Shown here piece after piece: positions 3,693 to 30,441 of a DNA stretch of 64,000 nt. How positions within the stretch are numbered: position 1 is the stretch's first letter; every line of letters begins with the position of its first letter. The notes beneath the pieces are model-generated. The model did not search any database. It saw nothing but the letters and a program-made list of their open reading frames with translations, and was not told where the DNA came from. This stretch comes from Neisseriaceae bacterium CLB008. Lineage in GTDB: Bacteria; Pseudomonadota; Gammaproteobacteria; Burkholderiales; Neisseriaceae. A program made the position numbers and the translations under genes. The stretch is from positions 1,955,380 to 2,019,379 of the forward strand of contig CP166133.1 of the NCBI GenBank assembly GCA_041228285.1. Direction: 5' to 3'.

Positions 3693-3705
3693 CTCAACAC
3701 CATCA

Positions 3706-6542: not shown

Positions 6543-7303
6543 GGTAAGGCCACCCAGGCTTTAGTAATGGGGTGCTGAACCAGATGCAGCGCCAGCCCAT
6601 AAATATCAGCCAGAATTTCTGGTTGCATGATGTATTTAGGCGGCCCTTGATACACCAGACTGCCCCCCTTTAAGGCCATGATGTGATCACAGTATTGCGC
6701 AGCTAAATTAATGTCGTGCAGTACCACCACAATGCCGATGTTTAAGCTATGGGCCAGATGCTTCACCAAGGCCATGACTTCGATTTGATGGCGTAGGTCT
6801 AAGGCGGCAAGGGGCTCGTCCAATAATAAATACTGCGTATTTTGCGCCAAACACATCGCCAACCAAACTCGTTGTCGTTCGCCGCCAGAGAGTTGATCAA
6901 CCTGCGCGTCCGCAAATGCCTGAGTATGGGTTTGGGCTAAAGCCTCATCCACCATCGCCCAATCGGCCGCGCCATATTGCCCCACCAAACCATGCCAGGC
7001 ATAGCGTCCCATCACCACCAAATCACGCACGCTAAGGCCGGGTGCGGCAGGCAGGTGCTGCGGCAAATAGGCCACCTTCTGGGCAAAATCGCGTGCACCC
7101 CATTGCCCCATAGGCCGATCAAACAGTCGTAACTCACCCGTAGTGGCCGTTTGCTGCTTAGCCAAAAGCTTTAACAACGTAGATTTACCTGAGCCGTTGT
7201 GGCCGACCAAACCATACACCTGACCCGTTTCAAAGGTGGCGGACAATGGTTGCAATAAGGTGCGGGTGGGCACAGAAAAACCCACTTCATAAAGTTGATA
7301 CAT
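6539..7303 (-). CDS. fhuC: Ferric-hydroxamate ABC transporter ATPase FhuC
   Basis: 254-residue ATPase for FhuBD. Walker A is GLVGHNGSGKST, the signature is LSGGERQRVWLAMCLAQ, Walker B is YLLLDEPLAALD and the switch histidine lies in VVLHDINLAAQYC. It is the first gene of the operon. No strong Shine-Dalgarno sequence is visible before the ATG at 7303, and no other in-frame start looks better. Confidence 0.93.
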   Translation of the reverse strand: MYQLYEVGFSVPTRTLLQPLSATFETGQVYGLVGHNGSGKSTLLKLLAKQQTATTGELRLFDRPMGQWGARDFAQKVAYLPQHLPAAPGLSVRDLVVMGRYAWHGLVGQYGAADWAMVDEALAQTHTQAFADAQVDQLSGGERQRVWLAMCLAQNTQYLLLDEPLAALDLRHQIEVMALVKHLAHSLNIGIVVVLHDINLAAQYCDHIMALKGGSLVYQGPPKYIMQPEILADIYGLALHLVQHPITKAWVALP

Positions 7304-10359: not shown

Positions 10360-11745
10360 ATGCACGTTTATCAAACCGTGGTACGGGGTCATTTAATCTT
10401 GGCCCACACCGAAATCCCTGATGGCTATGTAGCTATCGATCAAGGTAAAGTCGCCCGCATTGGCGCCGCCAGCGCCGGCCTACCTGCTGCTGAAACCGTT
10501 TACGACCACCGCGGTAGCTATGTATTCCCTGCCGCCATTGACGCCCAAGTACACAGCCGTAGCCAGCTCAATCAAGAAGACTTCATTTGGTCGACCCGTT
10601 CCGCAGCTGCCGGCGGCGTGGGCACCATCATTGATATGCCTTACGACTCTGGTCGCTTGATCTGCGACGCTGAACGCTTTGAGCTAAAGAAACAAGAGGC
10701 TCAGGCTCAAGCTCGGGTCGACTTTGCCCTATACGGTACGGTGCATCCTGACGAAGGCGCGAGCAAGATTGATGAAATCGTGGCCGCTGGCGCCATTGGC
10801 TTTAAATTCTCAACGTTTGGCACCGATCCGGAGCGCTTTCCGCGCATTCCACCGAAAACCATGCATGAGTGCTTTGCCCAAATCGCCAAGCATGGGCTAT
10901 TTGGCGGCGTCCACAACGAAGACGATGAAACCATCAAAACCTTAACCGCTGAATTCAAAGCGGCGGGCATCACCGATTACACCGCCCACGCCGCCACCCG
11001 ACCCATTTATGCGGAAAACCTCGCCATCCATCAAATTTATGAATTGGGCGCCGACACCGGTTGCCGCACCCACGTGGTGCACTGTTCGAATAAGCGCGGC
11101 TACGACATTTGCCAAAGCTATCAGCAGCAAGGCTTTCCCACCACCATCGAAGCTTGCCTTCACTATATGGTGTTAAGCGAGGATGAAGACGTTGCCCGTC
11201 TGGGTGGCCGCGCCAAGGTCAACCCACCGATTCGGCCGCAGCAAGAGCGTGAAGGCCTCTGGCAGCACTTGGCCGCCGGCAACATCACTGTAGTGTCGAC
11301 CGATCACGTCAGCTGGTCGCTAGACCGCAAAACCCACGCCAATATTTTTGACAACGCCTCTGGCGCCACTGGCCTCGCCCTACTGCTGCCGTTGATGATT
11401 CATGGCGCAGCCAAGCGCGGCATTTCTCTGACCCGTATTGCCCAAGTACTGGCCTACAACCCAGCGCGTTTATTCAGCCTACAGCACCAAAAAGGCGCTT
11501 TAGAATTAGGCTGCGACGCGGATTTGGCCATTGTGCGTAAAGAGCCTTACCAATACGATGCCAAAGCCAGCGGCCATAATTTTGCCGACTGGAGCCCTTA
11601 CGATGGCTTAACCATCGACTATCAGGTCAGCGCCACCATGCTGAGGGGCCAATGGATTTTTGCCAACGAACAGGTTTTGAGCGAACCGGGATCGGGCCAG
11701 TTTGTCCGTCCAGCCCACACGCTGCCTGCGGAGGCATCAGCATGA
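10360..11745 (+). CDS. Hydantoinase-family cyclic amidohydrolase (candidate hydantoin-5-propionate hydrolase)
   Basis: 461 residues of the dihydropyrimidinase/allantoinase type. The family opens a cyclic amide to an N-carbamoyl acid in the cytoplasm using a binuclear metal site. Visible motifs are the strand AAIDAQVHSRSQ, IGFKFSTFG (the bridging lysine), GGVHNEDD, THVVHCSNKRG and VVSTDHVSW. The usual HxH metal motif reads Q-V-H here, so the first metal histidine is replaced. In this operon the expected substrate is hydantoin-5-propionate, giving N-carbamoyl-glutamate for the next enzyme; that assignment is inferred. It is the first gene, and its stop overlaps the next start (ATGA). Confidence 0.85.
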   Translation: MHVYQTVVRGHLILAHTEIPDGYVAIDQGKVARIGAASAGLPAAETVYDHRGSYVFPAAIDAQVHSRSQLNQEDFIWSTRSAAAGGVGTIIDMPYDSGRLICDAERFELKKQEAQAQARVDFALYGTVHPDEGASKIDEIVAAGAIGFKFSTFGTDPERFPRIPPKTMHECFAQIAKHGLFGGVHNEDDETIKTLTAEFKAAGITDYTAHAATRPIYAENLAIHQIYELGADTGCRTHVVHCSNKRGYDICQSYQQQGFPTTIEACLHYMVLSEDEDVARLGGRAKVNPPIRPQQEREGLWQHLAAGNITVVSTDHVSWSLDRKTHANIFDNASGATGLALLLPLMIHGAAKRGISLTRIAQVLAYNPARLFSLQHQKGALELGCDADLAIVRKEPYQYDAKASGHNFADWSPYDGLTIDYQVSATMLRGQWIFANEQVLSEPGSGQFVRPAHTLPAEASA

Positions 11746-12986
11746 GCTTAATCGACACCCAACGCTATTGGCAGCAGCTGATGACCTTAGGTCAAATCAC
11801 CGACCCTAACCAGCCTTACACACGCCGCTCGTTTAGCGACTTATTCTTACAAGGCCGCAGCTGGTTAACCGAACAAATGCAGGCCGCAGGCCTTACCGTT
11901 CATGTGGACGCCGCCGGCAATTTAATCGGCCGAAAAGCAGGTAAAAAACCAGAGCTAGGCGCCATCATGCTCGGCTCACACAGCGATTCTGTGCCTTCCG
12001 GCGGACGCTTTGACGGCATTGCAGGGGTGATTGCCGCCCTAGAGTGCGCCCAAGCCTTACAGCAGCACGGTATTGAATTGAACCATGATTTAGAAATCGT
12101 GGATTTTTTGGCCGAAGAACCCAGCGAATGGGGCGTCTCCTGCGTCGGCAGCCGTGGTTTAAGCGGCTACCTCACGCCGGAACTGTTACAAACACCTCAT
12201 CCAAAAACCCAAGAGCTTTTAGCCGATGCCTTGGCACGTATGGGCGGTGACGCCAGCAAGCTACAGGTTCGCCACGACGTGGCCGCCTTTTTGGAGCTGC
12301 ACATTGAGCAAGGCCTAGTACTGGAACAAACCCAAATCGACATCGGCGTGGTCACTGGCATCGTCGGCATCATTCGACTGAGCATCACCTTCCAAGGCCA
12401 AGCAGCCCATGCCGGCACCACGCCGATGACGCTGCGCCAAGACGCTCTGACGGCAGCGGCCAACACCATTGTGTCGGCCCAAAACCTGGCCCAAGAGATG
12501 GCCGCGCGCCCTGAAGGCTATTTTGTCGCCACCTGCGGCCAGGTGCACAACCATCCCAACGCCAGCAACGTGGTGCCTGGACGAACTCAAGTCGTCTTCG
12601 ACATCCGCTCTGACACTCGCGGCTGGATGACTGAATTCGTCGACGCCATGAACATACTTGCCGTGCAGCACGCCCAAGCAGCGGGCGTGGCCATGACGCA
12701 ATTCGAACGCCTAACCGACACCTACCCTATGGCCTGCGATGAAGCTTTGATGCAACATATTGAAGCCGCCACCACGGCCTTAGGCCACAGCCAGCAGCGT
12801 ATGCCCAGCGGCGCCGGCCACGATGCAGCCTTCTTGGCCAAAGTCGCCCCCAGCGCCATGGTGTTTGTGCCCAGCGTGGCGGGGAAAAGCCATTGTCCAG
12901 AAGAATGGACGCCAGAAGCAGATTTAAGTAAGGGCGTGGCTGTCTTGATGCAGGCGCTATTGAACACAGATGCAGCGGCCGATTAA
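11742..12986 (+). CDS. M20-family N-carbamoyl-amino-acid amidohydrolase
   Basis: Zinc-dependent amidohydrolase of 414 residues in the N-carbamoyl-L-amino acid hydrolase/allantoate amidohydrolase group. Motifs: LGSHSDSVPSGGRFDGIAGV, the acidic pair in DFLAEEPSEWG, FLELHIEQG, GQAAHAGTTPM (dimerisation lid) and the C-terminal SGAGHDAAF with SVAGKSHCPEE. The start is set at 11742: GGAGG lies 8 bases before it and the ATG overlaps the hydantoinase stop. The longer open frame from 11652 would overlap the upstream gene by about 90 bases. Likely reaction here: N-carbamoyl-L-glutamate to glutamate, CO2 and ammonia (inferred from context). Confidence 0.9.
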   Translation: MSLIDTQRYWQQLMTLGQITDPNQPYTRRSFSDLFLQGRSWLTEQMQAAGLTVHVDAAGNLIGRKAGKKPELGAIMLGSHSDSVPSGGRFDGIAGVIAALECAQALQQHGIELNHDLEIVDFLAEEPSEWGVSCVGSRGLSGYLTPELLQTPHPKTQELLADALARMGGDASKLQVRHDVAAFLELHIEQGLVLEQTQIDIGVVTGIVGIIRLSITFQGQAAHAGTTPMTLRQDALTAAANTIVSAQNLAQEMAARPEGYFVATCGQVHNHPNASNVVPGRTQVVFDIRSDTRGWMTEFVDAMNILAVQHAQAAGVAMTQFERLTDTYPMACDEALMQHIEAATTALGHSQQRMPSGAGHDAAFLAKVAPSAMVFVPSVAGKSHCPEEWTPEADLSKGVAVLMQALLNTDAAAD

Positions 12987-13021
12987 GCGGCTGCTATAAA
13001 ACCAACAACGGAGAATGAAAC

Positions 13022-14113
13022 ATGGCCAGAATTTTAACCTTAGAAGACGTTGAGTTTGCCCTGCGCGGCGGCTCAGTATTTGCCTGCGGTGGCGGTGGCT
13101 GGGTGGCCCACGGGCGTGAGCTCGGCACCATGGCGGTCACCATTGGTCGTCCTGAGCTGGTGAGCCTAGACGAGGTCGCCGACGACGCTTGGATTGCCAC
13201 CGCTGCCGCCATCGGCGCACCCGGTGGACTGACCGACTGGGAAATGTTGGGCATGGACTATGTTAAAGCCGCGTCCTTATTGCAAGAAGCCTTAGGCGAC
13301 AAACTATACGGTCTGATCATCGGCCAAAACGGCATGTCATCCACCATGAATGCTTGGCTACCCTCTGCCGTCTTGGGCACCAAAGTAATCGACGCCGTGG
13401 GTGACATTCGCGCTCATCCAACCGGTGACATGGGCTCAATCGGTATGGCAAACTCCACCGAACAAATGATCCAAACCGCTGTCGGCGGCAATCGCGCCAA
13501 TAATCAATACATTGAACTGGTGACCCGCGGCGCCACCGCCAAAGTCTCGCCGATTCTGCGTAAAGCCTCAGACATGTCTGGCGGCTTCATTGCCAGCTGC
13601 CGTAATCCTTTACGCGCCGAATACGTGCGCCGTAACGCGGCCTTAGGCGGTATTTCTAAAGCCCTGACCCTAGGCCAAGCCATCATGGCGGCCGAGCCCA
13701 AAGGCGGTAACGCCGTAGTCGACGCCATCTGCAACAGCACTCAGGGCAGCATCATCGCCTCGGGTAAAGTCAGCGCCAATACCTTACGCTACACCGACGA
13801 AGCCTTTGATGTGGGCGTGATTGAAGTGGGCACCGGCAAAGACCTAGTGCGCATTCACGTCATGAACGAACACATGGCGGTCGAAAATACCCAAGGCGAT
13901 CGCTTGGCGACTTACCCTGACGTGATCACCACGCTGAACCGCGATGGCCAACCGATCAGCGCTGGCCAAGTACACGTAGGCATGGACATTTTGGTGCTGC
14001 ACGTGGCCAAACAGCATTTACCGCTGTCGTCCAGCGTGGTCGACCCCAGCGTTTATCCCCACGTTGAAGCCACTTTAGGCATCAACCTCAGCGATTACGC
14101 CCTTAAATCTTAA
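13022..14113 (+). CDS. DUF917 / S-methyl-thiohydantoin desulfurase family protein
   Basis: 363 residues. The start LTLEDVEFALRGGSVFACGGGG, the following DDAWIATAAAIGAPGG, HPTGDMGSIGM and the C-terminal DILVLHVAK are typical of DUF917. As I recall, Pfam renamed this family after an S-methyl-thiohydantoin desulfurase. That activity removes the sulfur of a thiohydantoin and leaves a hydantoin, which is exactly what the first gene of this operon would need. A Shine-Dalgarno GGAG lies before the ATG, 35 bases after the M20 gene. The family call is firm; the exact substrate (free or S-methylated thiohydantoin propionate) is inferred. Confidence 0.85.
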   Translation: MARILTLEDVEFALRGGSVFACGGGGWVAHGRELGTMAVTIGRPELVSLDEVADDAWIATAAAIGAPGGLTDWEMLGMDYVKAASLLQEALGDKLYGLIIGQNGMSSTMNAWLPSAVLGTKVIDAVGDIRAHPTGDMGSIGMANSTEQMIQTAVGGNRANNQYIELVTRGATAKVSPILRKASDMSGGFIASCRNPLRAEYVRRNAALGGISKALTLGQAIMAAEPKGGNAVVDAICNSTQGSIIASGKVSANTLRYTDEAFDVGVIEVGTGKDLVRIHVMNEHMAVENTQGDRLATYPDVITTLNRDGQPISAGQVHVGMDILVLHVAKQHLPLSSSVVDPSVYPHVEATLGINLSDYALKS

Positions 14114-14154
14114 TAATCAACAGCCCCTCAAGGGGCGCATACAAAGGATCAAAC

Positions 14155-15801
14155 ATGAGTCGTACCTTTACCGTCACCGGCGGCAACGCCTTACGCTGTC
14201 GTGGCTGGCGCCAAGAAGCGCTGCTACGCCTACTAGAAAATGTATTGGCCGTTGGCGAAGACCCTGACAACCTCATCGTCTACGCCGCCATGGGCCGTGC
14301 CGCCCGCGATTGGCCTAGCCACGACGCCATCGTCAATGCCCTGACCAGCATGACGGAAGACTACACCTTGATTGTCCAGTCAGGTAAACCCATTGGCCTC
14401 TTAAAAACCCACAGCAAAGCCCCTTTAGTGATCATGGCCAACTGTAATGTCGTAGGCCAATGGGCCAAGGCTGAAGTGTTTTATGAGCTGGAGAAAAAAG
14501 GCTTAATCTGCTGGGGCGGCCTCACCGCTGGCGACTGGCAATACATTGGCTCGCAAGGCGTGATTCAAGGCACTTATGAAATCTTTAGCCGCATCGCCGA
14601 ACGCCATTTCGACAGCAACCTAGCCGGCCGCTTCATTCTGACCGCAGGCCTTGGCGGCATGGGCGGCGCACAGCCCTTAGCAGGTTATATGGCCAAAGCC
14701 GCCACGCTGGTCGTGGAAATCGACCCAGAACGGATTGAAAAGCGCCTCAGCATTGGCTATTTACAAAAACGTGCCGACACCTTAGATGAAGCACTGGCCT
14801 TAATCCAAGCTGCACAGGCCAAAAAAGAAGCCATTTCAGTGGGCCTATTGGGCAATGCCGCCGATGTGTATCCAGAGCTGGTCGCCCGCGGCATCACGCC
14901 CGACATCGTCACCGACCAAACCTCGGCTCACGATTTAGTCTATGGCTACGTGCCTCAAGGTTATGATATGGCAGCGATTAAAACCATGCGTGAGCATGAC
15001 CACCCAACGCTGATGGCGGCCAGCTTAGCCAGCATCAAGGCCCACGTTGAAGCCATGCTGACGTTCCAAGCGCGCGGCGCCATCGTCTTTGACAATGGCA
15101 ACCTGATTCGCACCCATGCCCACAACGCTGGCGTCAGCAACGCTTTTGACATCCCGGTGTTCACCGAAGCCTTCCTACGCCCGCTATTCTGCCGCGCGAT
15201 TGGTCCCTTCCGCTGGGTGGCCCTGTCGAATAATCCGCAAGACATCGCCGTGATTGACGACTACATTCTGACCCGTTTCCCAGACAATAAAATCGTCACC
15301 AATTGGATTAACCTAGCCCGTGACTCTGTGCCGTTTGAAGGCTTACCAGCACGCATCGCCTGGCTGGGTCATCAAGAGCGTACTGATTTGGCCTTAGCCG
15401 TGAACGAGATGGTTGCCGATGGGCGCTTACAGGCCCCGATCGCCTTTACCCGCGATCACTTAGACGCCGGCGCGATGGCCCACCCCAACATCATGACCGA
15501 GAATTTAATTGATGGCTCAGACGCCATTGCCGACTGGCCGCTGATCAATGCCATGGTGAACTGTGCCTCACAGGCTGATTTAGTGGCGATTCACTCTGGC
15601 GGCGGCGGCTACAGCGGCTACATGACGTCCGCCGGCGTGACCGTCGTTGCCGACGGCACCGAGGCCGCAGCAGAACGCTTACAGCTAAGCATGACCAACG
15701 ACACCAGCCTAGGCGTGATGCGCTATGCCGACGCTGGTTATCCAGAGGCCCTAGACGAAGCCATGCAAAAAGGATTGCAGTACATTTCACTCACCCAATA
15801 A
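14155..15801 (+). CDS. Urocanase-family hydratase, candidate thiourocanate hydratase
   Basis: NAD-dependent urocanase fold, 548 residues. Family motifs are present: GLGGMGGAQPLAGYMA (NAD binding), VEIDPERIEKR, DQTSAHDLVYGYVPQGY and IHSGGGGYSGY. The substrate-side region differs from ordinary HutU: where HutU has roughly NSNLVPHWANWEHF and GQMTAGSW, this protein has ANCNVVGQWAKAEVF and GGLTAGDW (comparison from memory). With no hutI, hutG or hutF in view and a DUF917 neighbour, hydration of thiourocanate (or S-methyl-thiourocanate) is more likely than of urocanate. AAGGA precedes the ATG. Confidence 0.85.
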   Translation: MSRTFTVTGGNALRCRGWRQEALLRLLENVLAVGEDPDNLIVYAAMGRAARDWPSHDAIVNALTSMTEDYTLIVQSGKPIGLLKTHSKAPLVIMANCNVVGQWAKAEVFYELEKKGLICWGGLTAGDWQYIGSQGVIQGTYEIFSRIAERHFDSNLAGRFILTAGLGGMGGAQPLAGYMAKAATLVVEIDPERIEKRLSIGYLQKRADTLDEALALIQAAQAKKEAISVGLLGNAADVYPELVARGITPDIVTDQTSAHDLVYGYVPQGYDMAAIKTMREHDHPTLMAASLASIKAHVEAMLTFQARGAIVFDNGNLIRTHAHNAGVSNAFDIPVFTEAFLRPLFCRAIGPFRWVALSNNPQDIAVIDDYILTRFPDNKIVTNWINLARDSVPFEGLPARIAWLGHQERTDLALAVNEMVADGRLQAPIAFTRDHLDAGAMAHPNIMTENLIDGSDAIADWPLINAMVNCASQADLVAIHSGGGGYSGYMTSAGVTVVADGTEAAAERLQLSMTNDTSLGVMRYADAGYPEALDEAMQKGLQYISLTQ

Positions 15802-15915
15802 GCTGAACCCGCCGCGTCAAGCCTTGGTTTGGCGCAGCGAACGCATTCACAGCAGAGGCCTTGCTACAGACAAGGCCTCATAATAAAAAAATACCGCAGG
15901 ACCGAGGAGAATTTT

Positions 15916-17235
15916 ATGAACACCAGTCAAACCGCCCCTAAGCCGACACCGCAAAGCGCCCGTAAAGCCGTCGCTGCGGCCTCTGTGGGCAATGCGCTCG
16001 AATGGTATGACTTCAGCGTTTTTGCCTTTTTTGCCGCTTACATCGGCCATAGTTTCTTTGTCGAGGGGGATGAAACCTCGGCCTTAATCAAAACCTTTTT
16101 AGTGTTTGCCGTCGGCTTTATTGCCCGCCCCTTAGGCGCGCTATTTTTAGGCCTATACGGTGATCGTGTCGGCCGCAAAGCCGCCCTCACCTTAACCATT
16201 AGCCTGATGGCCGTGGGTACGTTCATCATCGCGGTGGCGCCACCTTTATGGATGATTGGCGCCGGTGCGCCGCTATTATTACTGGTCGGTCGTTTGCTGC
16301 AAGGCTTCTCTGCCGGCGGCGAAATCGGCGGCGCGACTGCTTTTCTGGTTGAATCGGCACCCGAAGATAAAAAAGCCAGCTACGCCTCATGGCTACAGGC
16401 CAGCATGGGCATTTCCAACATTTTGGCAGCCTTAGTTGGCGTTGGCGTGACGACTTTTTTCACCGAGCCCGAGATCCAGCAGTGGGCCTGGCGTTTGCCG
16501 TTCATCATCGGCCTATTGATTGTGCCCGTAGGCATCTACATTCGCCGCAACCTCGATGAAACGCCCGAATTTCAAGCCCAAGCACAGCACACCAGCAAAG
16601 AACACACCCCCTTGTTTGACATCGTGCGCCGCTACCCTTTGCATCTGCTGTATGGCGCGATGTTCTCCATTTTATGGACGGTGTGCGTGTATGCCCTAAT
16701 CATCTACATGCCCACCTATTACACGTCTAAAGTAGTGGGGCTAGGCTTCAGCAAAAACCAAGCCTTTACCGCCTCTCTCATCGGCAACGTGTTTATGGTC
16801 ATCGGCAGCTTGATTTCAGGGCGCTGCGCCGACAAAATCGGCATGGCCAAAGTCTTGCGCTACAGCGCAATTTTGCTGATGGTCGGCAGCTATCCCTTAT
16901 TGATGTGGCTTCACCACGATCCGGCAATGAGTACCTTGGTGTGCGTACACATCCTGTTCTGCCTGATGGTGGCGGCATTTTCTGGCGCAGCGCCTTCCGC
17001 CTTAGCCAGCATTTTCCCGGTAGAAGTACGCTCCACCGGCATGGCCGTGGCCTACAACATCGCCGCTATTTTCTTCGCCGGCTTTACCCCTGCACTGCTC
17101 ACTTGGGCCACCAGCCATAACGTCATGGCGCCTTCCTTGTACTTAGCCGGCGCCTGCGTGATCGCCTTAATTGCGCTGCAAAAAATGTTTGACCTGCCTG
17201 GCCCACGCCTAAAAAAGGCCGTCGTACATGGTTAA
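15916..17235 (+). CDS. MFS transporter of the metabolite:H+ symporter (MHS) type
   Basis: 439 residues with about 12 hydrophobic segments and the MHS/ProP signatures: ASVGNALEWYDFSVFAFFAA at the start, GLYGDRVGRKAALT in loop 2-3, LLQGFSAGGEIGGATAFLVESAP and RRNLDETPEF. The start is placed at the ATG at 15916, preceded by GAGGAGAATTTT; the longer open frame from 15829 has no better site. Its stop lies inside the next gene (8-base overlap). It most likely imports the pathway substrate or the product of the exported lyase. Confidence 0.88.
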   Translation: MNTSQTAPKPTPQSARKAVAAASVGNALEWYDFSVFAFFAAYIGHSFFVEGDETSALIKTFLVFAVGFIARPLGALFLGLYGDRVGRKAALTLTISLMAVGTFIIAVAPPLWMIGAGAPLLLLVGRLLQGFSAGGEIGGATAFLVESAPEDKKASYASWLQASMGISNILAALVGVGVTTFFTEPEIQQWAWRLPFIIGLLIVPVGIYIRRNLDETPEFQAQAQHTSKEHTPLFDIVRRYPLHLLYGAMFSILWTVCVYALIIYMPTYYTSKVVGLGFSKNQAFTASLIGNVFMVIGSLISGRCADKIGMAKVLRYSAILLMVGSYPLLMWLHHDPAMSTLVCVHILFCLMVAAFSGAAPSALASIFPVEVRSTGMAVAYNIAAIFFAGFTPALLTWATSHNVMAPSLYLAGACVIALIALQKMFDLPGPRLKKAVVHG

Positions 17236-19135
17236 GGCCAATGCCCTCACCAGCTTGGCGCAGCGCAAACGCTTAGAGTTTGTCACCTTAAGCAGCTATT
17301 TGTCGGTGTGCCGCACCCATAGCCCGAGCATCAGCGCCCAGCTTTTAGGCGCCTCACGCTCGGGCGTGAGTGAGCGCCTGAGTAAATTTGAGCAAACTTT
17401 AAATATCCCCTTGTTTGAACGCGCCCACAAAAAACTGTACGTCAATGAACAGGGGCTAACCTTGGGCAAGCACATTTTGCCCATGCTGCTATTGGCCCAG
17501 TTTGCCAGCCAATGCGCCACGGTGACCGTAAACGCTGAGCCGCTGTCACCGCAGTGGCTCAGCGTCCGCCTACCGCTGCGCTTTTATGGCGGGCCGCTGA
17601 CCCATGCCCTAGAGGTCGCACTGCGCCACTGCCACAGGCGCTACCCACAGATATTGGTGTGGCCACAACCCTTAGACAGCTATGACGTGCGCCCCAGCAA
17701 CGACACCCAATGGCAGCCACCTTGGCCGCTAGCAGGTGAAGTCAGCATAGACTGGGCGGCGCCCGATGCCCCGCTTCAGCCCCAGATGCCGCAGGGGCAA
17801 TGGTGTGTCCTAAGCCATGTCGATTCAGGCCTCAACAGCCGCCTGCATCCAGAAGACCTGCAGACCCTCAAACTGTATCTACCACGCATGCCCTGGCTCT
17901 TACTCCAGCAAATCGCGGCCGTCACCGCTGCGGCCACCTGGTCTTTTGAGCACATCAGCCAAGACTATCGCCAGCTGATGACCCAGCCCAATCCTGAACA
18001 GCGCATGATTTTGGTTAATAGTCTGCTGCTCGACCCCGAAATCATGGCGCCAGACTGGCAGGTCAGCCGCATTGAACACCTGCCCTTGGCCAGCCTGCAC
18101 AGCCACAGCCAAGGCCACCACCCGATTGTGGCCGAGTTCGAACAAGTCTTTAGCGCCGCCGTACACAACACCGGCCACAACGACAGCGTGGTGTGGCCCG
18201 CCGCGACTCAGCTCAAGCACTGGCACTATCTGCATCAAACCATTCGCTCCGGCTCCATCAGCGCAGGGGCTCAGGCCTTATTTATGTCGCAGCCTGCTTT
18301 AAGCATTCAACTCAAGCAGCTGGAACAGGCCCTAGGCACCAAGCTTTTAGAGCGCGGCATGGGCGTGCGCCACCTAACCATGACGCCGTTTGGCCAGCTG
18401 TTTTACGAACTGTGCCAAGGCCTGCACGATGCCCACCTACGCCTGATCGACTATAGCGAAGGCCAACGACTGAATCAGCAACAACACCTCTCCTTAGGCG
18501 TATTGCCCAGCGTCGACAATAAAAGCACGCTGTTGCAGCTGATTGCCAATCAAGTCACAGCTTGGCAGCAAAAAAATCCTCAGGTGTTTTTAGAAATAGT
18601 GGAAGAGCGCCATCGCTATTTAGTCGACGCCTTGCGCAGTCAGGCGCTGCACCTGGCCATCATCGAAGCCGATTCACCTTGGGTAACCCACCTACCGCTG
18701 CTGGCCCCAGAGGCCATGGGCTTAGTATTGAGTACCCAGCATCCACACGCAGGCCTCAGCCAGCTGGACTGGTCACAATTAAGCGACTATCCCTTGGTGT
18801 TGCCGCGTAAAAGCACCGGCATGCGGCTGTTAATTGACGAACATTGCCTCAGCCTTGGTTTGACCCTAAGGCCGGCGCTGGAATCTGACAGCCTCAACAT
18901 CAACCAATACTGGCTCAGCGAAGGCCGCTATGCTGCCATTTTGCCGCGTTCAGCCGTCTCCCAGCTGATTGAACAAGGCAAAGTGGCCTTCATTCCGCTG
19001 GCGCCTACCTTACAACGCGTCTTACGCATCGCCTATTTAAGCAATCGGGTGCTCAGCCCGACCGAGCAAAGCCTGGTGCAATGCCTTTTGGCAGAGGCCG
19101 AAGCCGCACCCCATCACAGCAGCACCCCACCATAA
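17228..19135 (+). CDS. Double-length LysR-type regulator (two LysR units in one chain)
   Basis: 635 residues, about twice a normal LysR protein (roughly 300). Residues 16-80 form one winged helix (SISAQLLGASRSGVSERLSK, NIPLFERAHKKLYVNEQG). Residues 105-325 look like a diverged effector domain. A second, canonical LysR helix-turn-helix lies at residues 330-390 (GSISAGAQALFMSQPALSIQ, LEQALGTKLLERG, LTMTPFGQ), followed by a standard effector-binding domain to the end. It overlaps the transporter gene by 8 bases and sits inside the operon rather than divergently, so it is co-transcribed with its presumed targets. The frame is continuous, so this is not an obvious assembly artefact. Confidence 0.85.
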   Translation: MVKANALTSLAQRKRLEFVTLSSYLSVCRTHSPSISAQLLGASRSGVSERLSKFEQTLNIPLFERAHKKLYVNEQGLTLGKHILPMLLLAQFASQCATVTVNAEPLSPQWLSVRLPLRFYGGPLTHALEVALRHCHRRYPQILVWPQPLDSYDVRPSNDTQWQPPWPLAGEVSIDWAAPDAPLQPQMPQGQWCVLSHVDSGLNSRLHPEDLQTLKLYLPRMPWLLLQQIAAVTAAATWSFEHISQDYRQLMTQPNPEQRMILVNSLLLDPEIMAPDWQVSRIEHLPLASLHSHSQGHHPIVAEFEQVFSAAVHNTGHNDSVVWPAATQLKHWHYLHQTIRSGSISAGAQALFMSQPALSIQLKQLEQALGTKLLERGMGVRHLTMTPFGQLFYELCQGLHDAHLRLIDYSEGQRLNQQQHLSLGVLPSVDNKSTLLQLIANQVTAWQQKNPQVFLEIVEERHRYLVDALRSQALHLAIIEADSPWVTHLPLLAPEAMGLVLSTQHPHAGLSQLDWSQLSDYPLVLPRKSTGMRLLIDEHCLSLGLTLRPALESDSLNINQYWLSEGRYAAILPRSAVSQLIEQGKVAFIPLAPTLQRVLRIAYLSNRVLSPTEQSLVQCLLAEAEAAPHHSSTPP

Positions 19136-19158
19136 CAACAAAGACTTTGGAGAAATCG

Positions 19159-20799
19159 ATGAAACGCTTATTAATTGCGACTCTTTTGTGCGGCCACAGC
19201 CTCGCTTGGGCCAACCTCACGCTCACCCCCGAGCGCCAACTGACCCTAGCCCAAGTTGACAGCGTGGCTCAGCAGCACGAAGCCGTCAGCCTTAACGCCG
19301 CCGCCTGGGCCAACGTACGCGCCGGCCATGAAGTGGTGCTACAGGCAGCCTTGAACAATCAAGCCGTTTATGGCCTCACCGTGGGCGTGGGCTGGAATAA
19401 AGACCACCCAGTTTTTGAAGAGCACCACGGCCAGCGCACTCTGTCGCCTGAGCTCTTGACGCTGTCGCGCCAGTTCAATCAATCGTCTTTACGCGCCCAC
19501 AGCGCTGGGTTAGGCGAACCCTTGCCCGAAGCCGTAGTGCGCGCCGCCATGTTGATGCGTCTGAACACGTTTTTAAACGGTGAAGCCGGCGTATCCGCCG
19601 CCGTGGCCGAACAATACATCGCCTTTCTCAACCACGGCATCACCCCCATCGTGCCCAGCCGCGGCAGCGTTGGCGAAGCCGACATCACCCTCGCTGCCCA
19701 TATTGGCTTAGCCATGATCGGTGAATGGGACGTTTGGTACCAAGGTAAGCGCCAGCCGGCGAGTAAAGTCATGGCCAAGCTAGGCATTAAGCCCCTACAG
19801 CCCATTGGTAAAGACTTTTTATCCATCCTCAGCACCAACGCTTTAATGGCCGCCCAAGCACAGCAAACCTTGCGTTCAGCGCAACGCCTCTACCAGCAGG
19901 AACTGGCCCTATTTGTGCTGATGCTCGAAGGCATGAACGGCAACGTTGCCCCCTTTAGCCACACCGCCATGCAAGCACGCCCATTCCCCGCCGCCAGCGC
20001 CGCCGCGGCCGACATTCGCCTCCAGCTGGATGGCAGCGATCTGTGGCAAACTCACCCACAGCGTGCGCTGCAAGACCCTTTATCCTATCGCTCTATGGCC
20101 TATACCCTGGGTGAAGTGCGCCAAGCCATGAGCCAACTCGAAACAGCTTTAACCTTGCAAATCAATCACAGTGACGACAATCCCGTGGTCTTAATCCATG
20201 GTTTAAACAATGCCGATGAAGGTAGCCAGATGCACCAATATGCCGTCTCCGGCAGCCATGAAGGCGCCATTGTGCCCACCGCCAACTTCAATTTTTTACC
20301 GGTGGCCCAAAGCGCCGCCCAGCTGAATGAAGCTTTAGCCAAGCTGGCCGAAATCATGACTCAGCAATTGATTCGCCTGGAAAATCCCGAGTTGACCAAA
20401 CTGCCACGGTTTCTGGCGGCGCCCAACAACCACGGCCATGCCTTCGGCGCCATTCAAAAACCATTCGTTGCCACCAACCAACACATCAAAACGCTGGCTC
20501 AACCACTCTGGTTTGATTCGGTTACCCTCGCCGGCAGCATCGAAGACACAGCCAGCATGAGCAACCAAACCCTAGCCAATACACAAGCCATCATCGACGG
20601 CGTATACGAAATCGCTGCCTTCCAGCTGTTGCATGGCGCCCAAGCGGTGGCCCTACGCCCCGACTTCACCCCCAGCCGCAGCACTCAAAAACTGCTGAAG
20701 GCCTATCGCCAGCAGGTACCCTTCATTGAGCAAGACATAGCCTACACGCCGCTGATAGAAAAAAGTCTGCGTTTTTGGCGCAGCTATCAGCCTCATTAA
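19159..20799 (+). CDS. Exported HAL-superfamily lyase without MIO triad; candidate ergothionase
   Basis: 546 residues from the ATG at 19159, which follows TTTGGAGAAATCG. It begins with a signal peptide, MKRLLIATLLCGHSLAWA, so it should act in the periplasm. It has the aromatic ammonia-lyase fold: YGLTVGVGW at residues 71-79, RGSVGEADITLAAHIG near 168-183, GNVAPFSHT and SDDNPVV. Histidine and phenylalanine lyases have Ala-Ser-Gly at the position of residues 173-175, which cyclises to the MIO cofactor; here it is Glu-Ala-Asp. It therefore cannot deaminate histidine by the MIO route. Ergothionases, as I recall, are MIO-independent relatives that release trimethylamine from ergothioneine to give thiourocanate. 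The five neighbouring enzymes fit that product. Confidence 0.8.
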   Translation: MKRLLIATLLCGHSLAWANLTLTPERQLTLAQVDSVAQQHEAVSLNAAAWANVRAGHEVVLQAALNNQAVYGLTVGVGWNKDHPVFEEHHGQRTLSPELLTLSRQFNQSSLRAHSAGLGEPLPEAVVRAAMLMRLNTFLNGEAGVSAAVAEQYIAFLNHGITPIVPSRGSVGEADITLAAHIGLAMIGEWDVWYQGKRQPASKVMAKLGIKPLQPIGKDFLSILSTNALMAAQAQQTLRSAQRLYQQELALFVLMLEGMNGNVAPFSHTAMQARPFPAASAAAADIRLQLDGSDLWQTHPQRALQDPLSYRSMAYTLGEVRQAMSQLETALTLQINHSDDNPVVLIHGLNNADEGSQMHQYAVSGSHEGAIVPTANFNFLPVAQSAAQLNEALAKLAEIMTQQLIRLENPELTKLPRFLAAPNNHGHAFGAIQKPFVATNQHIKTLAQPLWFDSVTLAGSIEDTASMSNQTLANTQAIIDGVYEIAAFQLLHGAQAVALRPDFTPSRSTQKLLKAYRQQVPFIEQDIAYTPLIEKSLRFWRSYQPH

Positions 20800-23851: not shown

Positions 23852-24430
23852 ATGAAATACATGCCTAAAACCATCGGCTATGCCAGAATCTCAACCGATG
23901 ATCAAACCTTAGACTTACAGACCGATGCTTTAAAAAAATCTGGGTGTAGCCTGATTTATAATGAAGTGGCCAGCGGTAAAAATGCTCATCAACGCCCTAA
24001 ATTAATCAAATGCTTGAGCCAATTAAAAGCCGGTGATCGGCTCATCGTCTGGCGCTTAGATCGACTCGGCCGCAGCGTCAATGATTTGGTCAGCATCATT
24101 ACGCAACTGGAAGAAAAATCCATTTATTTTGAAAGCATTACCGAAAAAATAGACACAAAAAGCAATACTGGCAAGCTGATTTTTCATATTTTTGCTGCTC
24201 TGGCCGAGTTTGAACGCAACCTGATTCGTGAGCGTACATTTGCTGGCCTTGCGGCTGCAAAAGCCAGGGGCCGCGTGGGCGGGCGCCGCCCTAAGCTAAA
24301 CGAACGCCAAATTGAAGAGATTAATCATCTTTTTTTTACCCAAAAAATCACCATTTCGGACTTGGCACAGCAATACAATGTCTCTAGAACCACAATTTCC
24401 AATAAGCTGAGGAAGCCTGCTTCATTTTAA
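23852..24430 (+). CDS. Serine recombinase, DNA invertase/resolvase family (Hin/Pin-like)
   Basis: 192 residues. The catalytic domain has the nucleophile Ser in IGYARISTDDQTLDLQ, the arginine-rich segment VWRLDRLGRSVNDLV, FHIFAALAEFERNLIRERT on the E-helix, and a C-terminal Hin-like helix-turn-helix ISDLAQQYNVSRTTISNKLRK. Small enzymes like this invert or resolve DNA between short dyad sites. The start may be 23852 or the second Met at 23864; GGGGACGGGGACT lies before the first. No transposase is nearby, so it is not an obvious transposon resolvase. Confidence 0.92.
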   Translation: MKYMPKTIGYARISTDDQTLDLQTDALKKSGCSLIYNEVASGKNAHQRPKLIKCLSQLKAGDRLIVWRLDRLGRSVNDLVSIITQLEEKSIYFESITEKIDTKSNTGKLIFHIFAALAEFERNLIRERTFAGLAAAKARGRVGGRRPKLNERQIEEINHLFFTQKITISDLAQQYNVSRTTISNKLRKPASF

Positions 24431-24914: not shown

Positions 24915-25973
24915 TTAATCCACTTCAGAAAATTCCATCACGATGGTGGCGGAGGCGGTAAAATCGCCCAAGGGAATGTTAGACCCCTGAGTAATCGGTG
25001 CCGCAGTTAAATCCCAATTGCCGCTGTTACTCGGCGTTTCTGGCATCTTGGTGAATTCATTGGGCTTCACGACTTGCCCTTTATGCTTGACCACCACCGC
25101 TAGATTTTCCATGCTGCTGGCCACGTAATCGTTAGAAAAAGAAGCCGGACGTGCGGACAAGCCAATACCAATGCCCTTCATGCCTTTATCGAAACTGCCG
25201 CCAGAGCATTGATAAGAAACCGGAATGCTTTTCACATAGCGGCTACCATCTAGGCTGGTCTGAGGGATGTCTTTAAAATCTACTTCAATGGTACGCCCAT
25301 CGTTCACCACGCACTTATCAGGCACCGTCAATAACGCAGTTTCAATCACCACTCGCGCCATCGGAATGCCACCGTAATCGGTATTGATCCCCGGAATATT
25401 AACGCGGCCATACATGTCGACAATTTCCCGCATATTGATGTCAATACCGTTTACAATTGGCTTACGCAGCTTAAACGTCACATAGCCTTTTGAACCAGAG
25501 CCAAATGTCGGATGGCTCGCCGTCGGTGGATTGGCGGCATTACAGGCAAACGAAATTCTCATGTCGTTGTCTTGATCAGGAAACGGCACCAAGAAATAGG
25601 TGTTACGGTTACCCGCAATAAACATATCGATGCGAATATCGATGTAGTCATTGAGGCGATGGTAGCCTGCATTGCCGTTGATGTCCGACACGGGTAAATT
25701 GGTTAAGGCACGATAATGAACCGGCCCCCACAGCGTTTCTCTTGGCTGAGAGCAATAAAAGGTGCCAGGATAAGTACCCGACAAAGAAAAATCATGCCGA
25801 AAAGTGCTGCCGGCCACGTTGGCTAATTGCCCGTCTCTCAAGGTGACTCGATACAGGTTAGGCGAGCCTTTTGAGGGTTCGACCTGCCCAGGCTGGCCGG
25901 CCCAAGCGGCAGTAGACAGCAAGCAGCCAATGAGCGGCGCCATGAATCGCCATTTAATCAATGAGATCATCAT
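24915..25973 (-). CDS. Two-domain fimbrial tip adhesin (last gene of the fimbrial operon)
   Basis: 352 residues with a signal peptide (LIGCLLSTAAWA), an N-terminal region of about 190 residues with no resemblance to pilin (likely receptor binding), and a C-terminal pilin-like domain (PDKCVVNDGRTIEVDFKDIP, VSYQCSGG, SATIVMEFSEVD). This is the layout of FimH/MrpH-type adhesins, placed at the distal end of the operon. The receptor cannot be predicted. Its start overlaps the preceding subunit's stop by one base. Confidence 0.8.
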   Translation of the reverse strand: MMISLIKWRFMAPLIGCLLSTAAWAGQPGQVEPSKGSPNLYRVTLRDGQLANVAGSTFRHDFSLSGTYPGTFYCSQPRETLWGPVHYRALTNLPVSDINGNAGYHRLNDYIDIRIDMFIAGNRNTYFLVPFPDQDNDMRISFACNAANPPTASHPTFGSGSKGYVTFKLRKPIVNGIDINMREIVDMYGRVNIPGINTDYGGIPMARVVIETALLTVPDKCVVNDGRTIEVDFKDIPQTSLDGSRYVKSIPVSYQCSGGSFDKGMKGIGIGLSARPASFSNDYVASSMENLAVVVKHKGQVVKPNEFTKMPETPSNSGNWDLTAAPITQGSNIPLGDFTASATIVMEFSEVD

Positions 25974-26536
25974 TATCGATATTCCAAGGTAAAATTAGTG
26001 ATGGCCTGAAAAGCACCCGTTTTAATGTTTTTCGCCTGCACCGCAGAAGGATGTCCTTCTACTCGGGCATGAAACTTAAGGACGTTGCTGCCTGAATTCA
26101 GAGTTTGCGCTTCAGTCCACTCCCCTAAAGGCAAGAGCTCATCCGAGTTTTCCTTGCCAAATAGGGCAATGGCGATGTCGTCAGCCCCAGTCACCTTCAA
26201 TCGACCAGGCAGCTCGCCATCTTCCAGCCCCATGAACATCACCGATACATCATTTAAAATGCTGGTGTCGCAATTCAATAGCCGAATTTCAAACGGCTGC
26301 TTCAGCCCCTTGCCGATGCTGTACAGCATTTTGACGTCGACTTCGCGTAGCTGAATGATCTGCTTCTCTGAACCCACATCCAATTCACAGGTTTTTTTAA
26401 TGACGGTGCCCTTAAAATTCACCTTAGACCCAATCAGCTCCAGTGGATTATTACTGGGAATTTCTTCTGCCTGAGCGCTGCCCAGCAACAGCAGCCCGCT
26501 TAGACCCAGCACCACTGCTAATGGCTTGTTCATCAT
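25973..26536 (-). CDS. Minor fimbrial subunit
   Basis: 187 residues. It has a signal peptide ending around LLLGSAQA, then a pilin domain of the type I family: NFKGTVIKKTCELDVG (Cys of the first strand), IRLLNCDTS (second Cys) and the C-terminal AITNFTLEYR beta-zipper. Probably an adaptor between rod and tip. It overlaps the adhesin gene and follows the upstream subunit by 9 bases. Confidence 0.85.
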   Translation of the reverse strand: MMNKPLAVVLGLSGLLLLGSAQAEEIPSNNPLELIGSKVNFKGTVIKKTCELDVGSEKQIIQLREVDVKMLYSIGKGLKQPFEIRLLNCDTSILNDVSVMFMGLEDGELPGRLKVTGADDIAIALFGKENSDELLPLGEWTEAQTLNSGSNVLKFHARVEGHPSAVQAKNIKTGAFQAITNFTLEYR

Positions 26537-26545
26537 CGCTGCTCC

Positions 26546-27184
26546 TTATAGATAACTCACACGGATGTTCACGACGGAACTAAACTCACCCCCTCGAACC
26601 GATTTTTGCGTGGATTCCAAACCGGCGTAGAACAGCAGCACGTTTTCGCCCGGATTAAGCAAATAAGCCTGATTCACTTCATTCAGCTTAATCACCCGCC
26701 CTTGTTGATCGGTAAAACGCACCCCAACGCCACGTGCCTCACCATGTGCCGCCAAAAGCTGAGGGTTGAGCCGATCAGACTCACCCACAAACGTCAGCGT
26801 GGCACCGTATTGGCCATTTAAAAACACATCGGTGCCTACCCCATCGGCGCGCGCCTCAAACTGTTCGCCCTGCATCAACGGCCCTCTTGCATCATAAGCA
26901 CCCAGCAAACAGCCAGAAAACTTTAAACGAATGGGCACAGCGGCACTGCGCGCACCGGCCTGATTAAACGCCTTAGCGCTCACCACGCCTAAATCAACCG
27001 ACTGGGTGATGGTGTCCATCCGCATCTCACACGTGCTGCTCACCAAAGTACCGATAATGCGTACCGTGCCTAACGTGCCTGAAATGTAGTCATCCGGTAA
27101 AGACGCAGCATGGGAGAGGCCACTCAGGCCCAACAAACAAAAAATCAGTGTGCGGTGATTCATAAATCCGTCCTTTATCAGCAT
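26546..27184 (-). CDS. Minor fimbrial subunit
   Basis: 212 residues with signal peptide (LIFCLLGLSGLSHA), GTVRIIGTLVSSTCEMRM and LKFSGCLLG cysteines, and the C-terminal SSVVNIRVSYL strand typical of chaperone-usher pilins. The start may be MLIKDGF or the internal MNHRTLIF; the latter gives a normal signal peptide. It follows the chaperone gene by 9 bases. Confidence 0.83.
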   Translation of the reverse strand: MLIKDGFMNHRTLIFCLLGLSGLSHAASLPDDYISGTLGTVRIIGTLVSSTCEMRMDTITQSVDLGVVSAKAFNQAGARSAAVPIRLKFSGCLLGAYDARGPLMQGEQFEARADGVGTDVFLNGQYGATLTFVGESDRLNPQLLAAHGEARGVGVRFTDQQGRVIKLNEVNQAYLLNPGENVLLFYAGLESTQKSVRGGEFSSVVNIRVSYL

Positions 27185-27193
27185 AGATTAAGC

Positions 27194-27943
27194 CTATTTT
27201 TTCGTTTCATCCGCGCCTGGCTGTGCCACACAGTTTTGCTGTGCATCGCAGGCAAACTTAAGCTCAGGATGGCCCCCATAATCGTTGATGTAGTCCAATA
27301 CAAACGTTGACGGTACTGGGTTCTTCAAAGTAATGGTTTCGGTGGCGAAAGGAGCCAGCATCAAACCGCCAAACCCAGCCATGTCGCGGCCACCCTTGTC
27401 TCTAAAATCATTGGCAAAGCCAGTCATCACAATGTAAAACGGCGTGGGGTTATTCACCGTCAATTGATTTTGAGCGCGTTTAAACGTTAACTGCTCCTGC
27501 CAAATTGTGCCGCGCTTAGGCACAATGGCCTGAGGTCGATAAAACAGCTTCACCCGCGTTTGTAGGGCCAGCTGCAATACATTGCTTTTATCGCTTTTAG
27601 GCGGTACTTCGCGCACATTGAAAAAGAACAGGCTTTCCCTATCCTGTGGCAAGGTATTCACTTCAGGCAGCGTGGTGACGCGAATCACGCTTTTGCTGCC
27701 CGGCTCCATCCTTTGCAGCGGCGGCAGCGCCACTAAGGGCGACGTGATTTTTTGATAATGTTCATCTTCTAGCCAGGTTTGGGCCAAAAAAGGCAGCTCT
27801 TTATTGTCGTTGCTTAAATTAATGCTGACCGAACGCATATCGCCCGAATACACCACCCGTGTACGGTCAATAGTGATCGCTGCCTGAGCCGCCGTGCTGA
27901 CCATCAGCCCTAAAATACAGGCCCAACGAAATGATTTGTTCAT
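27194..27943 (-). CDS. Periplasmic pilus chaperone (FimC/PapD type)
   Basis: 249 residues counted from the ATG at 27943, which follows AAAGGAAGC and gives a clean signal peptide (MNKSFRWACILGLMVSTAAQA). The longer open frame to 28027 would run into the usher gene. Chaperone motifs: TRVVYSGDMRSVSINLSN, FLAQTWLEDE, PLQRMEPGSKSVIRV, LFFFNVREVPPKS and VKLFYRPQAI. It caps pilin subunits by donor-strand complementation and delivers them to the usher. Confidence 0.9.
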   Translation of the reverse strand: MNKSFRWACILGLMVSTAAQAAITIDRTRVVYSGDMRSVSINLSNDNKELPFLAQTWLEDEHYQKITSPLVALPPLQRMEPGSKSVIRVTTLPEVNTLPQDRESLFFFNVREVPPKSDKSNVLQLALQTRVKLFYRPQAIVPKRGTIWQEQLTFKRAQNQLTVNNPTPFYIVMTGFANDFRDKGGRDMAGFGGLMLAPFATETITLKNPVPSTFVLDYINDYGGHPELKFACDAQQNCVAQPGADETKK

Positions 27944-27963
27944 GCTGCTTCCTTTTGAATGAA

Positions 27964-30441
27964 TTATTGACAAGTGAGCACCGTTTTCGAGAAGGCCACG
28001 GAGGCCACTGGCACTGTAATCTGGCACTGTTGACGATCGCCCCAGGTCACTTTTAAGCTTTCGTTTTCTTGCACGCCCGACAGATAAACCAATCCACCAT
28101 CGGTGATGACGGCAATGGTTTTACCACTGTCGTTCATGACGGTGGCACCAAAGGGTGGCGGCACATCGCCATCGGCTCGCGTAATCGTGGCCAACATTTT
28201 CAAACCTTTCACCACATCCATTTTCCGATAGCCAATGGCGCCTTCGGTCAACGTGCTTTCCACCATTGCGAGCGGTGCATCTACTTCATCGTCTAAATGA
28301 TCGACGTCAATCCGGGTACGGGTGTCGACATAGCTCACGACGTCGGCCACCACGGCCTTACCGAAACGGTTACTGTAGGCAGCGCCATCGTTAATCGGCA
28401 CGCCAGCCACTTTACCGGTGTCGACCAACACCCGAGTGCCGCCGCCGATGCTGTTCGGGTGCAAAGCGACCCCTTTCAGGGTGGCCGTGATGCCGCCGCG
28501 AATCTCTAGGCCCATGCTCTGATAGCCCTGCTGCTGCCAGTCGGCATTGAAGCCAACGGTGGCCAAACTGGTTTGACGGTTATAATAACCACGTACATTG
28601 GCGTCATTATTGCTGTTCATGCCGGCCGAAACCTGCCAGTTGTTATAGCCCTCACCGCCGCTTAAGTTGGCATTGTGCGACGTTTTACCATCTTGGCTAG
28701 AGAGGCTATAGCCGACGTTGATCCGTTTTTGCGTTTCTAGCGGCATAGACAAATTCAACATAAAGCCCTTGGTGTTTTCACCATACTGCTTATTGCTGTA
28801 AGCATTAAATGACGCCGAAATGTTTTTCACGCGGCCGACAGAAAAAAGCTTGCTGGCCGAAAGGCTCAAACGGTTCCGGGCGCTATCATCCCAATAGGTT
28901 TGGCGGGTATAGCTTAAGTAAGCGGTAATCGCTTTTCTGGGCTCTTCTGGCCAAAACGTCTTACTCCCGGTCACCGTATACAGCTCTTTATCGCGGCGAA
29001 AATACTCATCTTCTTTGTTGTAAGCATTTAAGAACTGCGACACCGTCATGAACTGACGTTCTGAGAATCGATAACCGGCAAACGAAATTTGACCGTGTAG
29101 CTCATCAAAACGCTTGGCATAGTTAAAGCGAAACGAGTGGCCAGTGAGTTTTCGGCCATTGGATAAATGCGCATTGGACTGAGTCACGTCGACAGAAACG
29201 GCGCCTAAAACGCTTAAGTCACGACCCACACCAAAGGCGATGGCATTGTAGTCTTGACTGCCCACAGCCCCACCAAATAGAGACCATGAATTACTGACGC
29301 CCCAAGAAAAATCGCCGGTGGCAATCATCGGGCCTTCGATTTTGTGATCAAAATCAGAAGGCCGCCCTAAAGACACGTTATAGCGCACTTGGCCTGGACG
29401 CGTGAGATAGGGAATGCTGGCCGTGCCGACCTCAAAAGTTTCAATACGGCCATCGTCACCCTCTACCGTCACCTGTAATTTACCGCGCACCGAACTGCTT
29501 AAATCCTGAATCATAAATGGACCAGCCGGCACCGTAGTCTTATAAATCACGCGGCCTTCTTGGCTCACCGTCACGGTAGAGTTAGTGGTCGCCACGCCCT
29601 GCACCTGCGGTGCATAGCCTTGTAAAGACGGTGGCAGCATACGCTCATCGGTTTTCAGGTTGGCACCAATATAGCGAAACCCATCAATCAGATCAGAATC
29701 TAGATATTGTTCGCCCAACGTCAACTTAGCCGCTATTTGCGGTAAAGCACGATAGGCATAAACTTGTGACCAGGTAAAATCACGCTCAGTCTGGCCATTG
29801 CCATGACGCTCATAGCTTTGGTAATCACCACGTAAACGCCAAGCGCCCGCATTCATGCCCACTGTACCGTAGACGCTGATGTCGCGATTGCGATCGCCAT
29901 TATGGGGTTTATTACTTCTGGCCGTGACGTTATAGTCCAGCATCACGCCTGGAATACCCTCGTCCCAAAGTTCAGGAGGCGTCCAGTCTGGGTCGCTGTA
30001 TTTAAGCCATGCCTGCGGGACATTGATGCGCATCGCGGCTTCGCCTAAATGCGTCGTGATGGTGACGCCCTCAATGGCAGACACGTCGGCGCATTGGCCA
30101 TCTTCAGAAATCTTAATCAGTTTTTGAACGTCGTCGGTTAACAGCATTTTGGGAATGATGCTGACGGGCAAACAGGCCACGGTCTTGCGTTCATCGCCCT
30201 CGACGCTGACATAGTTAATCCGCTGCTGCGGTAAGACGCGTTTATTAATGTAGACATCCAGCACATACGTGCCGGGCATCACGTAGCCCACTTCAGAGAA
30301 TCGAGACAAATCCACACTGCTGCGCTCACTGATGTCCAGAATGTCGGTATTAAACTCAACGGCGGCACTGGTATAGCCTGAAGCAAACGCCATAGAAACG
30401 CAGGCCGTTATGGTTTTTAAATGTGTCGATAACTGTGGCAT
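27964..30441 (-). CDS. Outer-membrane fimbrial usher (FimD/PapC type)
   Basis: 825 residues. Signal peptide, N-terminal chaperone-binding domain (VEFNTDILD ... SRFSEVGYVMPGTYVLDVYIN), a 24-strand pore with the plug segment (FMIQDLSSSVRGKLQVTVEGDDG) and two C-terminal domains ending PPFGATVMNDSGKTIAVITDGGLVYLSG and CQITVPVAS. It forms the secretion pore for the pilus. Length is normal and the frame is intact, so the system looks functional. Confidence 0.95.
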   Translation of the reverse strand: MPQLSTHLKTITACVSMAFASGYTSAAVEFNTDILDISERSSVDLSRFSEVGYVMPGTYVLDVYINKRVLPQQRINYVSVEGDERKTVACLPVSIIPKMLLTDDVQKLIKISEDGQCADVSAIEGVTITTHLGEAAMRINVPQAWLKYSDPDWTPPELWDEGIPGVMLDYNVTARSNKPHNGDRNRDISVYGTVGMNAGAWRLRGDYQSYERHGNGQTERDFTWSQVYAYRALPQIAAKLTLGEQYLDSDLIDGFRYIGANLKTDERMLPPSLQGYAPQVQGVATTNSTVTVSQEGRVIYKTTVPAGPFMIQDLSSSVRGKLQVTVEGDDGRIETFEVGTASIPYLTRPGQVRYNVSLGRPSDFDHKIEGPMIATGDFSWGVSNSWSLFGGAVGSQDYNAIAFGVGRDLSVLGAVSVDVTQSNAHLSNGRKLTGHSFRFNYAKRFDELHGQISFAGYRFSERQFMTVSQFLNAYNKEDEYFRRDKELYTVTGSKTFWPEEPRKAITAYLSYTRQTYWDDSARNRLSLSASKLFSVGRVKNISASFNAYSNKQYGENTKGFMLNLSMPLETQKRINVGYSLSSQDGKTSHNANLSGGEGYNNWQVSAGMNSNNDANVRGYYNRQTSLATVGFNADWQQQGYQSMGLEIRGGITATLKGVALHPNSIGGGTRVLVDTGKVAGVPINDGAAYSNRFGKAVVADVVSYVDTRTRIDVDHLDDEVDAPLAMVESTLTEGAIGYRKMDVVKGLKMLATITRADGDVPPPFGATVMNDSGKTIAVITDGGLVYLSGVQENESLKVTWGDRQQCQITVPVASVAFSKTVLTCQ

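Follow-up and report, generated by a model that had tools for sequence, protein, structure and literature searches.

A predicted exported, MIO-independent ergothionase and a candidate thiourocanate carrier in an ergothioneine operon of Neisseriaceae bacterium CLB008

The lyase homologue encoded by the last gene of an ergothioneine operon in Neisseriaceae bacterium CLB008 is probably a Sec-exported ergothionase that works without the MIO cofactor, with an MHS-family symporter taking up thiourocanate for cytosolic breakdown to glutamate (Table 1; the window is the whole analysed stretch of 64,000 nucleotides from contig CP166133.1). In this scheme the exported lyase would cleave ergothioneine to thiourocanate and trimethylamine in the periplasm, the carboxylate thiourocanate would reach the cytosol via the MHS proton symporter, and thiourocanate hydratase, thiohydantoin desulfurase, ErtD and ErtE would convert it there to glutamate. 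As the antioxidant ergothioneine would be split outside the inner membrane, the cell would import the breakdown product and not ergothioneine. Catalysis, cellular location and MHS cargo are deduced here from sequence and gene context. The protein belongs to a known enzyme family and a known pathway, and the lost MIO was already known; it is the exported first step of ergothioneine breakdown that looks new. Neither an exported ergothionase nor a thiourocanate reductase was found described in the literature searched, which covered few subscription papers, and the novelty is therefore provisional.

Table 1. Features of the predicted ergothionase and its operon, in window coordinates.
Feature	Position	Strand	Basis
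ErtD, hydantoin-5-propionate amidohydrolase	10360..11745	+	NF058538, 716.8 bits (cut-off 600)
ErtE, N-carbamyl-L-glutamate amidohydrolase	11739..12986	+	NF058540, 567.8 bits (cut-off 520)
Thiohydantoin desulfurase	13022..14113	+	NF058529, 612.9 bits (cut-off 440)
Thiourocanate hydratase	14155..15801	+	NF058530, 1029.8 bits (cut-off 930)
MHS-family metabolite/H+ symporter, proposed thiourocanate carrier	15916..17235	+	Family match; co-occurrence with exported lyases
Double LysR-type regulator, 635 aa, proposed operon regulator	17228..19135	+	Two HTH_1 stretches in one ORF
Shine-Dalgarno GGAG	19149..19152	+	Direct sequence reading; ATG 19159 lies 6 nt further on
Exported MIO-free ergothionase (predicted), 546 aa, PF00221	19159..20799	+	ORF and PF00221 match
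Sec signal peptide, residues 1-18, MKRLLIATLLCGHSLAWA	19159..19212	+	Rule-based test with controls
Tyr71	19369..19371	+	Invariant alignment column; aligned with YG of the HAL active site
Glu173-Ala174-Asp175 at the MIO-triad site	19675..19683	+	Alignments
Lys434 (FGAIQK)	20458..20460	+	Alignment
Glu462 (IED)	20542..20544	+	Alignment; matches the conserved Glu of HAL (QEDH)

PF00221, the fold common to this lyase and the histidine ammonia-lyase (HAL) HutH, covers the whole protein at E 4e-120. A sequence search against solved structures led to the ergothionase of Treponema denticola (6s7j; E 1e-71) as best match, followed by a HAL-type enzyme (3e-44), and an AlphaFold2 model built from 23 homologues (mean pLDDT 86) again gave 6s7j as its top PDB match in Foldseek (TM 0.86/0.94, 33% identity), ahead of HAL. 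The T. denticola enzyme (PDB 6s7j, 6s7q) has the same fold and the same LQDPLS motif at about 33-35% identity, and the residues aligned with Tyr71, Arg311, Lys434 and Glu462 all match. Lys434 is present in most EAD, CAD and KAD lyases (the family divides by motif into EAD, DAD, CAD, KAD, QAD and AAD subtypes), is replaced by Asp in the DAD subtype and is missing from HAL. A HAL/HutH replacement was ruled out, as the lyase scores 267.5 bits with the hutH model TIGR01225, far under the cut-off of 539 bits, lacks MIO and has no hut genes as neighbours. A search of the organism's genome returned no second aromatic-lyase match.

The original prediction was that Glu-Ala-Asp stands in place of the strictly conserved Ala-Ser-Gly of HAL, and translation and alignment confirmed these residues at 173-175, inside RGSVGEADITLAAHIG. 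The MIO triad is indeed gone, but not by plain substitution: in the alignment with 15 HAL rows, G-A-S-G-D of HAL corresponds to G-E-A-D, the loop being one residue shorter and Asp175 representing the conserved Asp that comes after the triad in HAL. MIO cannot form because the required serine is missing; this part of the prediction stands as well, although it is no surprise, as it is a known property of ergothionases (PMC13405746, which cites Maurer et al. 2019 for the absence of MIO). The triad is also missing from the T. denticola enzyme, with EGD (SIGEGDIT) there instead of EAD. Sequencing error or chance in the MIO loop was ruled out, since 79 of 139 lyase rows in the alignment, from many genomes, share EAD.

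The N-terminus of the lyase, MKRLLIATLLCGHSLAWA followed by N, has a positively charged n-region, then a hydrophobic core, and A-W-A as cleavage motif; this fits Sec export and signal peptidase I, and there is no lipobox. For comparison across the family we used an in-house rule (a positively charged n-region, a 10-mer that is hydrophobic and free of charges, and a small residue at both -3 and -1) that was passed by all 67 porins and cytochromes c, by 2 of 46 sigma-54 regulators, and by none of 45 cytosolic pathway enzymes and none of 15 HAL rows. The lyase passed, as did 71 of the 79 EAD rows (a few genomes counted twice). Of the eight misses, three are Enterococcus, which has no periplasm; the other five, three cyanobacteria whose N-terminal stretch is longer and two Shewanella whose leader is weaker, have leaders that are visible but atypical. 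A false upstream start as source of the leader was ruled out by the GGAG motif and the conservation of the leader. In the tree the exported lyases form one clade, and the T. denticola ergothionase, whose aligned chain has no signal peptide, falls outside it. The predicted clear signal peptide, a feature that HAL had been said to lack, is thus borne out on both counts by the rule, the A-W-A motif and the retention of the leader across the clade.

Upstream of the lyase, four genes exceed the NCBI equivalog cut-offs for ergothioneine utilisation, and the enzymes score under the cut-offs of the S-methyl variants of these models. All four cytosolic steps of the curated ergothioneine utilisation pathway are therefore represented, from which the operon differs by the predicted export of its first step, the MHS carrier and the double LysR regulator; the ergothioneine operons of Pseudochrobactrum encode a 605-aa protein similar to this regulator. 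The thiourocanate hydratase is the sole urocanase-family gene of the genome, and among 399 genomes sampled from the order, that of the window was the only one in which thiohydantoin desulfurase was found. The operon (10360-20799) is possibly a gained island. Its GC content is about 0.54-0.58 compared with about 0.50 for most of the window, and the sampled genus-mate G002 has only a HAL-type match. Reading of translations further revealed a serine-recombinase-like ORF close downstream (23852-24430) and, on the minus strand, a chaperone-usher fimbrial cluster (24915-30441) and an iron-siderophore type ABC uptake cluster (2052-7303).

The MHS protein scores higher with TcuC, a tricarballylate carrier (341 bits), than with ProP, a betaine carrier (244 bits), being under both curated cut-offs. 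As the MHS family includes ProP, membership alone leaves ergothioneine possible as cargo. A reading of the cargo from family scores alone was dropped as not decisive, and a co-occurrence test was used for this reason. In a single scan, 84,980 species genomes yielded 79 lyase loci, with locus neighbour genes in GC-rich genomes searched by tblastn. Among loci with thiohydantoin desulfurase, MHS accompanied 11 of 12 exported lyases and none of 24 cytosolic ones (Fisher p 2e-8, which overstates the association because few independent transitions underlie it, namely a deep split between CAD and EAD lyases and a single nested loss). In the one exported case that lacks MHS, Photobacterium L028, the carrier is of the TRAP type. 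This catabolic setting of cytosolic genes plus carrier was found in the window, Pseudochrobactrum, a gammaproteobacterial MAG, Trinickia, Burkholderia arboris, Paracoccus denitrificans and Photobacterium. The cytosolic lyases at desulfurase loci belong mostly to a CAD-motif clade within one family, to which Vibrio L045 and Reinekea L066 are to be added. Transporters visible beside cytosolic lyases are mostly ABC importers: Vibrio L045 has one of OpuAC/OsmF type, L066, L153 and L177 have the ATPase and permeases that go with it, and the importers of L157, L160, L167 and L170 are of a different ABC type. ABC parts like those of the EgtU/OpuAC-type ergothioneine importer are found with cytosolic lyases, but no OpuAC binding protein with ABC parts was found beside the window lyase, where the MHS symporter stands instead. 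L045 and L066, both without signal peptide and with betaine-type ABC importers of the OpuAC kind, are nested in the fully supported ten-row subclade of the window lyase, from which we infer that leader loss accompanied MHS loss. Four further desulfurase operons (L152, L154, L156, L180) have a TRAP carrier and no lyase nearby, and may belong to scavengers of thiourocanate released by others.

This distribution supports our reading, as it is the pattern expected if exported lyases depend on the uptake of a carboxylate product and cytosolic ones on that of a betaine. The alternative that the ergothionase acts in the cytosol, because of a non-functional leader or dual location, and that MHS imports ergothioneine itself, would agree with the leaderless aligned sequence of the biochemically known 6s7j, the cytosolic nature of all later pathway enzymes and the place of ProP in the MHS family. 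It is nevertheless unlikely, given the retention of leaders over a large clade, the relatives that adjoin periplasmic-type reductases and cytochromes c with leaders of their own, and the lack of MHS in the cytosolic-lyase operons. The original prediction was conditional: if the protein were an exported ergothionase, thiourocanate would have to be imported and MHS would be its carrier. Homology to 6s7j, four equivalog-level neighbours and clade-wide leaders all argue for the first part, and the co-occurrence of MHS with exported lyases for the second.

Independent support for ergothioneine as substrate of the window lyase came from the pairing of its relatives with distinct reductases. In a respiratory setting (Shewanella, Ferrimonas, enterics and Sutterellaceae) the exported lyase adjoins a flavocytochrome, a tetrahaem-type cytochrome c, a sigma-54 activator and, in many cases, a porin; the enterics have a cytochrome b561/multihaem protein there. 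Like UrdA (6t85), the reductases beside these respiratory relatives are of the FAD_binding_2 periplasmic type. The genome of the window organism has no TIGR01813 protein above cut-off, and a periplasmic UrdA-type reductase partner in this organism was dropped accordingly. UrdA is the best solved match of the lyase-adjacent Shewanella reductase (E 7e-73), yet residue mapping showed that Glu177, Tyr373 and Asp388 of UrdA are missing there; Glu177 and Asp388 hold the imidazole ring (residues, including the also compared Tyr373, from PMC7921117). The altered pocket recurs in all 53 reductase rows adjoining EAD lyases, where covered, whereas the seven rows adjoining DAD lyases retain the UrdA residues where covered. 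Full-length DAD partners are 57-63% identical to UrdA, and that of L084, the one scanned, has an FMN-binding domain. A search of the Sutterellaceae-type family brought nine more DAD-UrdA rows and eight more EAD rows, in part from genomes already represented, with no crossed pair, and seven genomes contain both pairs. Exported DAD lyases with UrdA are found at L084, L088, L090, L095, L098, L222-L227 and L239. The pairing suggests separate thiourocanate and urocanate modules, the simplest reading being that thiourocanate is the product of EAD lyases and urocanate that of DAD lyases, which probably start from hercynine; DAD lyases are possible hercynine lyases feeding imidazole propionate formation. 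Sutterellaceae also have a third exported lyase type (L020 1447-3099, L236, L237) with the motif SEGANDL and about 30% identity to P0001, which in L020 and L236 adjoins another flavin reductase. Two loci are probably mislabelled or contaminated: L026, titled Bacillus subtilis SK6B4, is nearly Pseudochrobactrum-like, and L044, titled Marinobacter nauticus DP3N21-5, is nearly Ferrimonas-like.

The clear subtypes of the family would favour the idea of a different substrate among trimethylammonium derivatives of histidine (such as hercynine, S-methyl-ergothioneine or ergothioneine sulfonate), as would L101, a plasmid of Paracoccus saliphilus on which an exported EAD lyase adjoins hutU, hutG, hutH, hutI and a TRAP transporter (record annotation). 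We regard such a substrate as quite unlikely for the window lyase, since its downstream enzymes pass the thio models and fail the S-methyl ones, EAD lyases are in no case paired with a true urocanate reductase, and Lys434 is shared with the T. denticola ergothionase. That the protein is without catalytic activity and serves as a binder or sensor in the periplasm, as might be imagined from the established knowledge that loss of the MIO serine would inactivate HAL, is very improbable, because ergothionases catalyse without MIO (PMC13405746) and the Tyr71, Arg311, Lys434 and Glu462 columns are retained.

Ergothioneine breakdown has so far been described without an exported first step, as far as the literature searched shows. 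A 2026 survey with one Burkholderia query sequence found ergothionase confined to few genera (PMC13405746, which cites a 2025 study on thiourocanate cross-feeding); with such a single query, relatives that carry a histidine ammonia-lyase annotation would escape notice. For the family as a whole we lean, if only slightly, towards a clade of trimethylammonium lyases, widespread, exported and MIO-free, that would feed either product-specific importers for catabolism, as in the window, or periplasmic respiration, the latter by EAD lyases (ergothioneine to thiourocanate) with a dedicated thiourocanate reductase and by DAD lyases (probably hercynine to urocanate) with true urocanate reductase, which would give gut Sutterellaceae a MIO-free periplasmic route to imidazole propionate and trimethylamine. 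Location and transport, backed by comparative evidence, are the valuable part of the finding. An exported first step would mean that trimethylamine is freed outside the inner membrane and that thiourocanate is the transported compound, and the importer type would be predictable from the presence or absence of a leader on the lyase. Judging by the respiratory relatives, Shewanella, enterics and gut Sutterellaceae may draw periplasmic electron acceptors from ergothioneine and perhaps from hercynine, which bears on trimethylamine and imidazole propionate, both metabolites of relevance to the host.
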